From Schistocephalus solidus (taxonomy: Eukaryota > Platyhelminthes > Cestoda > Diphyllobothriidea > Diphyllobothriidae): a stretch of DNA of 64,000 nucleotides. Every line of letters starts with the position of its first letter. Position 1 is the first letter of the stretch. The position numbers were made by a program, and so were the translations under genes. Below, in pieces: positions 1 to 28,672 of the stretch. Location of the stretch: NCBI GenBank assembly GCA_017591395.1, contig WEDG01002121.1, positions 1-64,000 on the forward strand, in the 5' to 3' direction. The notes under the pieces are model-generated. The model was not told where the DNA came from. It worked only from the letters and a program-made list of their open reading frames with translations, and searched no databases.

Positions 1-104
1 AGAGAGAGAGAGAGAGAGAGGAGAGAGAGAGAGAGAGAGAGAGAGAGAGAGAGAGAGAGAGAGAGAGAGAGAGAGAGAGAGAGAGAGAGAGAGAGAGAGA
101 GAGA
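1..104. repeat. (GA)n microsatellite at the left edge
   Basis: An almost pure GA dinucleotide tract begins at the first base, with one phase slip near position 20-22. It is the mirror image of the TC tract at 28531-28672, and the unique sequence next to each tract also matches in inverted orientation. It therefore marks the outermost visible point of the left palindrome arm. The tract is cut by the window edge, so its true length is unknown. Confidence 0.95.
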
Positions 105-399
105 TATCACCGATTTTATTGAGCTTATCATTACTCGATGCATGACATTGTGGATTATCGATGACCAACGATAACAACGAATAAAGACCGATCTGACAAT
201 CTTGCAACACGGGCCAGCCTGAAAATTGAAACAGCATGCGATTCTGGTCAGTGTTCTACTGGTGATTCATCCTTATACAAGTCGACAGGAATGTTGTTAT
301 ATTGCAAACATGCCAGAATTATCAGCAACACAACAACAATTCTAGAGCAGCTGATTGGGATCAGCAGTCTTTCGTCTTCCTTTCTCGTTAGCTGCAAAA

Positions 400-980
400 T
401 TCATTCGCAACCTCGAAGTTATGTGGAACTTCACGGTTTTCGAAATTTGAATCATAAATTAACAGAGTTCCGAACAGCCCGCATTCGTATTGATCACCGT
501 TTTTTTGTGTTTGCTGCCGATTAAGATGTGATAAGTTGCTGTATTAGTAAACTTGTTATTGCCTTCATTTCAGAAGCGATAATGCTTAGTGCCCGAACAA
601 TTCAGTAACCAGTCAGATTAGCACCACTGGTTTCATACTGGAATCGTTAATTTTCTTTTGGTGTTTTATACCAAAGACGTTATCAGCTATGGCGTTCTTT
701 GTGACGAACACCATTGCTTTTGGTGTTGTATTCAGCTTTCTTCTTAGCGATGATACTACCAGAGAAGTTTCTGTCACAGCGATCTTCAATAGATTCAGCA
801 GCTCTGGCACTTCTTTCGCGGTATTTCCGTTGTTCGAGAACGAAGCCTTTAACATAGAGGTTAATAACAAGATGATTTGTCTTTTCGTACTGATGACTGA
901 CAACTCTTCTTTTCATTCGATACGCGGCGATAAACATGGTTTGTCGTGGACGTTGACGTGTTACTCCGCTTCATTTGGCC
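400..980 (-). pseudogene. Mirror remnant of the Merlin-type transposase
   Basis: By interpolation along the palindrome this interval should mirror the transposase remnant at 27392-28150. A minus-strand frame at 613-903 supports it. That frame contains KEVPEL followed by an RKLNTTPK-like stretch, matching KEVPEL and GKLNAAPK in the right-arm copy. The frame is otherwise badly scrambled and lacks the recognisable DDE core. It is a duplicate of a dead element rather than an independent gene. The exact ends are estimates. Confidence 0.5.
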
Positions 981-3900
981 GAGAGTTATGGCGAAGACTG
1001 GTCTTTTTCGTTCGTCGCTTGTTCATACCCATGAACACTGTTCATTTTCACCGTCATATATACCGGCCGGTTTTATCATATCATCACGATTTGTCTTTCA
1101 TTTACTCATTACCTGATTCTGGTCGTTAGCCAGCAGCTGACGTACGCAACTGATAGTAGGAAAATTATGGTATTCGATCGTTTTTCAGACTTTGCTGCAG
1201 TTTTGAAAGCATGAACTTAAAGCAATAAAACTTTTCTCGATGGGAAGAAAGAAATTTCGCGGAAGATTTCCATGTCACTGTAAAATGTTGTGTGAAAGAT
1301 GGCAGAAATTAACGGAAAGTATACTCGTTACGATTGGGGATTTCGTTGGCATGATGCAGATTCTCCAACGAAATTAATGCAGAATGACCGTCGATTCGAT
1401 GCAGCTGAATGAAAATAATCAAAATTGTTAACGCAGAGTGATGTGAAGAACACTACAGCAATAACAGAATTGATGGAATAGCAAAATTTCTTTATTTATC
1501 AATCAAATACCTGGTTCCAACATTGCCAACAGAGTGATTAAGCCGCGTCGAACTATCAACACGAAGACAAAATTTCCAGATATGCTTGTGATTTTAGATA
1601 CACTTCAGTTTTGCCATCTTCAGCAGTCAGCGACGTTTTCATCTTATATCAACTAAAATTAGGTGTCTCTTGGATTGGCTAGGCCTTTTGCGTATCTGGT
1701 GATAGCTTTCAGCTGAATGAAGCTTACGACAAATGTTTTGAGCTGTTCGTCGTATTATGATTAATTGTCTTTTCTCGTCCACAACAGGTACCGAGTGATA
1801 ACGGTCAAAATCTGTCAATAGTGGATATCGTGATTCGGAAAGCCCGATTTGAAATTGCAGCATTACCGCAAAAGGTCAATTTTGCCGATGGCGAAGGCTT
1901 CGTCACAGCAGCTGCGTATAAACAAACCTGCCATTCATATTTCACCATTTTGGTTGCTGCTGCGAGTACCTCAATTGTGATTGAGCTCAGTTGTCATTTT
2001 ACGCGAAGAACGCTTGAAATGAAAATCCTTTGACCTCTGGCGTCGAAAATTCGACATGACGGAAGACTTCGAGGAACATTATATTTCATTCGCAAGTTAT
2101 TTCATCCGATGAGTCAACATAATAACAGCGATTCATTCTTCGCGCCCAAAATTGATATTTCATTCGTTATTCCAGATACAACCGTAAGTAATAAGTCGTA
2201 ACAAATCTCTTTGGTCATAGTTTTGCGTTTGTTTCATTATCAAAAACTTTCAGGTTTTCATTTGCAATAATAATTTCATTGGCGGATTGCGATCATTGAC
2301 GGAGTCCCGCAATTCACATCAGATTATCGACTCATCAGCTCGGCCGGTATCGATCGAGCGGACATGCGACAGCTATCATTAAAGCGATTCCTGAAAGAAT
2401 GAAAAGTTTCGACGCGCCATTTCAACACGCATTACAACTTTCGCATAGAAAGTTAAAACCGTAGCGCCCAGCCCCAGGTCTGTATTGTCAGGCAATTATT
2501 AAAACCCGTGAATTAACATTACCATTAGTCTTTGCGTTCTCATCGCCAGCATACTTACGAATTTTAGAAATACTTTAAAACTAGTAGTTCGGTAAGATCA
2601 ACCGCAAATAGCGAAGCTGCGATAAATAAGTTTGATCAATCATCCGAAGAAGAGTTTAATCAGCGGTTACCAGTTATCGCACGCATGGAACTACCACCGT
2701 CCTCATAATGGTTTTGCTTTCGTTCTTTCACCAACCAGTTCATACCACGATCTTCATAGGACGTATTAGCGGAAGCATTCCAAAATATAGTCGAAGCTTC
2801 GATCTTCCTTCGGGATGTCAATACGGATTCCCGAGAAGTGTTTAGTGCCAGATCTATGGCGCGAGCTGCCAACATTCAATCGAAAGTGCCGCAGACGTCA
2901 GAAAGGCATTTATTATTGGTTCAGTTATATCGAGTATGTCCTGCTTCAGTTTCGTTCGATAGTTTTATCTCCGATCTACGCCGATGACGCCAATCATTTA
3001 AACGATCTGAAGATCATCGCATATCAGCTGATCGATATCGTCAAACCATGTAATAACGTTATTCGAAAGTTTGAATACCGATCGAGATTCGATTATCTGA
3101 TTTAGCCACCACGGACGCCGCAACAAATAATGGAATATCATGACCACCGTTGATACCGTTGATACGGCAGTTCTGTCGAATACTGGGGAGTTTTTTTCAT
3201 CGTTCGTTTTCAACTTTCGTTCATTGAGCAGCCATTCCTCGTCATCGATATTGTTCATTTTGATAATAATACCGTACGTAATATTAGATTGCGACCACCA
3301 CATTCTTCCTCAAATATGTCGACACGATACGGTGGAAGACGTTTTTCGACGATCTTCAGAGCATCGAACGATGAATATACCAACAATAAAGACTGTAGAA
3401 AGAATAGTAGCGGTCGGTTCCTACCAGCAATGTTCACCGTTCATTCTGATATTGAATGCCAGATTGCCGGGTAATCGGTCGAGGAAGTTCTATATCGCAA
3501 CGACATGTTTGAGTGTCCGTTGATTAGTGATATCGAATTTAACGTCGCTTCAGTTCGACGCCCGTTTGCCGCATTGATGGTTAACGTTCTGTCTTCGAGT
3601 TGGGAAATATCAAAACAACCGACCGAAACGCATCAACGGCGAATCCAGCCTTCGGAATAGCCAATACCAGTTGACGTTCGGTTTTGAAGGTGAGAGGGTT
3701 CACTTGAGTCATGACTGGCTGCCGGCATTCGCGATGATTGACAGACAAACCACCAATACCAGAAGATAATAAAGTTTGCGGAAAACCGTACCGATCATGA
3801 AGACGCCCAAAATGGTATCAACATGACGACCAAAAGTTAGCCGCATTCTCGATTAAACAAAGAGGCTTGAAATCAACGGCGAAATAATAACGACGCGTCA

Positions 3901-27391: not shown

Positions 27392-28150
27392 ATGGAGATG
27401 AAAAAGGAAGAGTTGTCAGTCCTTTCAATCAGTACGAAAGGGGAACGAATGCATCCTTATTGTGATTTGAACCTCTATGATATTTTAAAGCTTGTTTATC
27501 TCCGGAGCAACGGAATGCCACTGAAAGAAGTGCCAGAGCTTACTGGCAGATCCCTACATGTTGGGGTCGACCGGCTTAATAACTGACAGGAAGTCTTCTC
27601 TGAAATGGTATCTGTCGCTAAGAGAGGAAAGCTGAACGCAGCACCAAAAAACACAATACTAATGGACGAGGCTAGATCTAAAGGGCGCCGTAAGCACAAT
27701 CATGGCAGTCTTTAAGGTAGCGATAAAACTACCAAAGAAAACGATGCTGAACCAGTATGAAATTATTGGAACCTTGGCTCACGAACTGATAGTCCACAAG
27801 TTTTTGGATTGTTTTGGGCTACTGATGTCAAGTAATTTTGCGTACACAAGCGTGATGCGAGGACGTTAATCCTTCTAAGTGAAGGCGAATAAGAAGCAAG
27901 TTTACTAATACAGCCAACTTATCCATGCTTAATCAGCCTGGGTGCGATGATAAAACTGTAAAAGCCGAGCCAATTACGTTGATCCAAATACAGGTGTGCA
28001 GATCCCAGCAAACCGGAGGACTCTGTTAGACAACATGATTCAAATTTCAAAGAAAACTCGTGAAGTTACACATAACTAACTTCAGGGACACTTGAATGAA
28101 CACAGCTGGTGTATTTTGAAAGGAGACGAAGACCACTTGGTAACGATCCA
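27392..28150 (+). pseudogene. Merlin/ISXO2-like transposase, broken
   Basis: The ATG at 27392 opens MEMKKEELSVLSIS, followed by a helix-turn-helix-like LKEVPELTGRSLHVGVDRLN, then a stop. The homology continues across several frameshifts and stops. LNAAPKNTILMDEARSKGRR, with the first catalytic Asp in MDEA near 27665, is followed by VFGLFWATDVK near 27800-27830, then HKRDARTLI, then the VDPNTGVxTQTIE-like region near 27980-28015, and last a HLNEHSW-like end at about 28090-28120. This order is that of the ISXO2-like (IS1595/IS1016) DDE domain of Merlin DNA transposons, which are known in flatworms. The element is clearly inactive. Terminal inverted repeats were not found by eye. A mirrored remnant lies at about 400-980. 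Confidence 0.75.
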
Positions 28151-28530
28151 AATCAATACTCTAGAATTATTTGTTGATTTATTGTTGCTATTTAATTCTG
28201 ACATGATTTTTGCAATATAAACAACATATTTCGAGTCTGATCGCGTTTTTTGACTTGTACCTATTAGGGATAGGAATCACACTAGAGTAGAACACTGATT
28301 GTAAGAATCACGCTATAGCAGCAACCTGCAACGAAAATTTTCCAAAAAGACGTACATTACGACACCACAAGTTTATTCAAGGTCGAGTGGCTGTAAATTG
28401 TGATACGAGTAATTTTCATCGTGTTGAGGGTTAAATCGATAATCCACAATGTCATTCGTACGGCCCTGAGGTGAATCGATTAAGCCGGGCGAAAAAGCAC
28501 GAAATGGTTGAATTAAAGCTAACTACCTAC

Positions 28531-28672
28531 TCTCTCTCTCTCTCTCTCTCTCTCTCTCTCTCTCTCTCTCTCTCTCTCTCTCTCTCTCTCTCTCTCTCTC
28601 TCTCTCTCTCTCTCTCTCTCTCTCTCTCTCTCTCTCTCTCTCTCTCTCTCTCTCTCTCTCTCTCTCTCTCTG
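28531..28672. repeat. (TC)n microsatellite
   Basis: About 142 bases of pure CT dinucleotide. The flanking CGATAATCCACAATGTCAT at 28437-28455 recurs inverted next to the GA tract at the window start. Open frames here (Leu/Ser or Arg/Glu repeats) are translation of the dinucleotide and not genes. Confidence 0.97.

Follow-up and report, generated by a model that had tools for sequence, protein, structure and literature searches.

Nanopore sequencing of inverted and folded DNA

When inverted duplicates are sequenced on a nanopore, the second half moves through the pore faster, and its sequence is miscalled and shorter than that of the first half; a pull on the strand by re-annealing behind the pore has been proposed as the cause (Spealman et al. 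2020, PMC7229812). In head-to-head arrays, the second unit was too poor for annotation, and misassembled contigs resulted (PMC8348815). Fold-backs make up about 0.55 to 0.6% of Oxford Nanopore (ONT) genomic reads and are argued to arise in library preparation; in eight fold-back cDNA reads whose raw signal was examined, no notable difference was seen around the breakpoint (Heinz et al. 2026, PMC12870357). Palindromic molecules are also made by whole-genome amplification (PMC6218980), and nanopore reads of Borrelia plasmids with closed ends pass round the end (PMC10580987). A literature search on palindromic contigs and on inverted repeat artifacts returned nothing.

The locus described here occupies the first 28.7 kb of a 64,000-nucleotide stretch of Schistocephalus solidus contig WEDG01002121.1, the whole of which was analyzed and is referred to as the window. 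It shares with the reads in PMC7229812 a good first arm and a bad, shortened second arm of matching extent; there, however, the evidence consisted of single reads over proven yeast inverted duplications together with observations on human samples, whereas ours is assembled sequence alone. The array of PMC8348815 differs in being a real inverted T-DNA array that was resolved by opposite-direction reads. Our locus and the fold-backs of PMC12870357 both show a near-symmetric inverted copy, with a turn made up of little sequence or none, but those artefacts were found in reads, including the eight inspected without notable signal change, whereas our inverted copy stands in an assembly. Nanopore reads that round the ends of the closed-ended linear Borrelia F27 plasmids likewise give inverted copies with translocation trouble (PMC10580987); these plasmids are bacterial replicons whose closed ends are known and whose inverted duplication is real, unlike the eukaryote-like locus here.

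Inverted collinearity of the two arms

A preliminary description of this DNA had proposed a giant imperfect palindrome, and such a palindrome is present in the letters. The reverse complement of the left arm (1 to 12381, minus strand) is collinear with the right arm (12451 to 28672, plus strand), far beyond chance. A BLASTN comparison of 1 to 12407 with 12409 to 28672 (E up to 1e-3) yielded five minus-strand matches, all in a single order, with pairings that run from position 1 with 28621 at the outermost to 12099 with 12858 at the innermost; there was no plus-strand match between the two segments at this threshold. A gap-tolerant global alignment spanned the arms from the tip, which is a GA dinucleotide tract (1 to 104, plus strand), to the apex. 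It scored 8436, compared with 2234 for a same-strand control and 2155 for a reversed left arm, and it found a collinear partner for 25 of 25 500-base bins. The two anchors named earlier, 5830-6600 with 20380-21200 and 3060-3306 with 24440-24680, both lie on its diagonal. In the long BLAST match, 62% of columns were identical; in the global alignment, counted over aligned base pairs, identity was 86%. Among unique 14-mers common to both arms, 162 of 163 fell into one chain (two controls shared 2 and 3), as did all 84 unique 16-mers into one order (0 and 0 in the controls).

Two parts of the preliminary description need qualification. The collinearity had been called continuous; it holds in order but is interrupted by 1517 deletion and 374 insertion events in the global alignment. 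The arms are indeed long, as had been claimed, but unequal (about 12.3 and 16.1 kb), and they are separated by a spacer of 69 bases, not one. Pairing at the apex stopped at 12381 and 12451 in a local alignment, which places the spacer, or turn, at 12382 to 12450; it contains a small local hairpin (DNA fold of 12340-12495, z = −2.70). In this respect the locus is as expected of a nanopore fold-back or inverted-duplicate artefact, whose second half should be inverted and collinear and set off by hardly any spacer. At the outer end of the right arm, a TC (CT) tract (28530 to 28671, plus strand) is the partner of the GA tract, which has 0.73 of its length.

One-sided differences between the arms

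The left arm is a degraded, shortened copy of the right. With the dinucleotide tracts left out, it lacked 4331 bases in 1512 deletion events relative to the right arm and had gained 557 bases in 374 insertion events. In contrast, nine other repeat pairs of the window (74 to 98% identity of aligned bases) had a pooled 79 deletion and 83 insertion events, with deletion:insertion ratios of 0.25 to 2.0 for single pairs and one pair without indels. There were 1.15 indels per substitution between the arms and at most 0.42 in the nine pairs. The deletion excess persisted, at ratios of 2.4 to 8.3, under each of five scoring schemes; four control pairs were rerun under these schemes, of which three stayed at 0.6 to 1.0 and the fourth (31720/35638), with few events to count (3 to 24 insertions), gave 1.6 to 3.3. 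With the scheme that favoured gaps most, the arms stood out less in indels per substitution (3.18 against 0.44 to 1.55 for controls). Shrinkage of the left arm was even, at a mean of 0.76 of right-arm length (sd 0.06 over 16 one-kb steps). When three right-arm open frames were followed into the left copy, 43 of 52, 54 of 65 and 34 of 39 gaps were frame-breaking.

Substitutions were also one-sided. Two transition types were strand-asymmetric: T>C reached 0.139 and its counterpart A>G 0.043, and C>T reached 0.089 and its counterpart G>A 0.040. All four types of transversion were closer to equal between strands. Such asymmetry is expected from a single strand that was read once and unexpected for a mutated double strand. 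Repeat-induced point mutation (RIP) works in the direction C to T. RIP-like hypermutation was rejected here, as T>C exceeded C>T.

The two arms also differed in composition. In a composition-corrected trinucleotide signature, correlated between blocks of the window, the right arm agreed with 28.7-54 kb at r = 0.92; the left arm reached only 0.17 against its own twin and 0.31 against 28.7-54 kb. The observed/expected (o/e) ratio of CpG was 1.54 in the left arm, 0.85 in the right arm and 0.84 in 28.7-54 kb. In one-kb bins it was 1.03 to 2.05 for the 12 bins of 1-12000 and 0.52 to 1.23 for the 51 bins of 13001-64000, with 1.05 in the mixed bin at 12001. By signature, CpG ratio and BLASTN matches, the right arm is thus ordinary sequence of the window, and the pattern is that of a fold-back or inverted-duplicate artefact, in which the first half is normal and the second shorter and miscalled. 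The arm differences were not of the same kind as those between other repeat copies, as a natural duplication would have them, in either indel balance or CpG ratio.

Within the first 40 kb, change points were located at 12900 for CpG and at 12400 for a set of depleted triplets. Long homopolymers are mostly lost from the left arm: runs of at least 5 occurred 2.06 times per kb there, 6.79 times in the right arm, and 8.60 and 6.94 times in two later blocks. TAG and CTA together were halved in the left arm (13.3 per kb against 26.4), which favours chance open frames, and its two frames of at least 150 residues (590-1129 and 6707-7177) are probably chance by-products. Against a yardstick of one 50-kb piece of Escherichia coli, k-mer correlations were 0.81 for the left arm, 0.63 for 28.7-54 kb and 0.51 for the right arm. 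The shift toward E. coli had a correlation of 0.84, but this figure and its comparator have a term in common, and the values for three control pieces were 0.60, 0.13 and 0.39, which makes it suggestive at most. Judged by this one yardstick, the likeness may point to a basecaller that reverted to what it had learned from bacteria.

The right arm had 43 BLASTN matches to 28.7-64 kb (E up to 1e-3), and the left arm had none in the same search. In a third-copy test, the left arm scored below the right arm for 43 of 43 of these matches, above the mean of five shuffles in 36 of 43, and in 42 of 43 its closer match was the right arm and not the other copy. This pattern would be expected of a noisy derivative of the right arm, with the caveat that the test leans to the right arm, as copies were picked through right-arm matches and the left arm had no matches to pick from. 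One dispersed repeat family among the 43 matches has copies at 16893-17658, 33545-34299 and 48261-49003 (about 63 to 69% identity). Separately, the window holds a second, genuine-looking inverted repeat (54559-57141 and 61630-64000) with balanced indels and about 4.5 kb enclosed. It is 90.7% identical over 1734 columns inside and 77% outside, and it resembles an element with long terminal inverted repeats.

A Pfam scan of eight open frames, of which three lie in the right arm, one spans the apex and four lie beyond 28.7 kb, gave none above cut-off and two weak matches. A fragment at 35155-35502 (minus strand) is like the helix-turn-helix of Tc3-type transposases (PF01498, E 4.8e-4, 20.8 bits, below the cut-off of 31.5). 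The right-arm frame at 24980-25369 (minus strand) has an end that we take to be reminiscent of LINE reverse-transcriptase C-termini; a homologue search with it returned two candidates, neither at E up to 0.001, and it had no Pfam match above cut-off. A tRNA scan with bacterial settings and an Rfam search at gathering score found nothing. A long ATC trinucleotide array (55105-55617), with a decayed continuation, yields spurious long open frames on both strands.

Origin of the left arm

We consider it very probable that the left arm is an uncorrected nanopore fold-back read kept in the assembly and not a natural chromosome feature; the palindrome is most likely an assembly artefact of an already described kind. 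The preliminary description rightly linked the palindrome to the alien look of the left part, but the exceptional eukaryotic inverted duplication that it implied finds no support, as the differences between left and right are patterned like reading errors, not like evolution. We infer that the platform was nanopore, that a molecule had folded back, that correcting reads were lacking and that position 1 lies at or near a contig end. A DNA molecule would have folded back on itself, most likely during library preparation or amplification, and passed through an Oxford Nanopore pore, the first strand being read normally from 28672 down to 12451. Past the 69-base turn, the complementary strand would have paired again with the first strand, which had already left the pore, and been pulled through too fast, with many bases lost or wrongly called, and the assembler would have retained this second half, uncorrected, as 1-12381.

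Some observations count against this reading. The left-arm tip is milder in degradation, with a match of 0.86 to 0.88 in the first 1.5 kb and a CpG o/e of 1.03 to 1.19 in the first 2 kb, which has no explanation in it. The change point for homopolymers of at least 4 in the first 40 kb lies at 15000 and is mismatched with the apex. The signal result of PMC12870357 also means that not every fold-back read need be degraded.

We give a slim chance to an inverted structure that truly exists in the cell, be it an inverted duplication or a covalently closed hairpin DNA end whose apex lies near 12.4 kb; the left arm would then be no more than its second strand as miscalled by the nanopore. CCCTAA on the plus strand is the orientation expected at a left chromosome end. 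When up to two mismatches are allowed, the window has 14 CCCTAA-like matches, some of which overlap (2.67 in all expected by chance); 8 of the 14 lie in a degenerate stretch at 13109-13448, all on the plus strand and 0.7 to 1.0 kb from the apex. This stretch, which would be subtelomeric if the apex were a hairpin end, is what keeps that idea alive. On this very unlikely reading, a nuclear chromosome or element would truly end in a closed hairpin there, or carry an inverted structure capped by one, and all reads would run round it one way, so that only the first strand was read well. True inverted duplicates also yield a bad second arm (PMC7229812), and reads do pass round closed Borrelia plasmid ends (PMC10580987). 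However, some 630 bases that are not telomere-like lie between the apex and the CCCTAA-like stretch, and the 69-base spacer leaves the arms without a tight loop. Were the structure a flanked inverted duplication, reads entering from the other side would give a good left arm (PMC8348815), whereas the one here is bad throughout; and library-made fold-backs are common in ONT data (PMC12870357).

An ancient natural inverted duplication with a mutationally diverged left arm would fit the inverted collinearity by itself. It has a negligible probability and was rejected on account of deletions that outnumber insertions 4:1 on one side, a CpG gain restricted to one arm and the loss of repeat-family similarity, all 43 right-arm matches being absent from the left; the strand-asymmetric substitutions also speak against it. 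A PacBio continuous long read in which the hairpin adapter was missed and both passes were joined would give a palindrome with a small spacer, but its errors would be mainly insertions and alike in both passes, whereas in this locus most of the errors are deletions, and only one of the arms is bad. Three PacBio samples contained virtually no fold-backs in HiFi and Mas-Seq and 0.03% in Iso-Seq (PMC12870357), and we hold this origin to be extremely unlikely.

If the left arm is indeed an uncorrected fold-back read, a single such read can put more than 12 kb of false sequence into an assembly. This sequence would look alien, CpG-rich and bacterium-like in its k-mers, and could be mistaken for horizontal transfer, a giant palindrome or new open frames. 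The one-sided deletion bias and the k-mer shift near the apex can be recognized without reads and may be used to screen assemblies for such tails.
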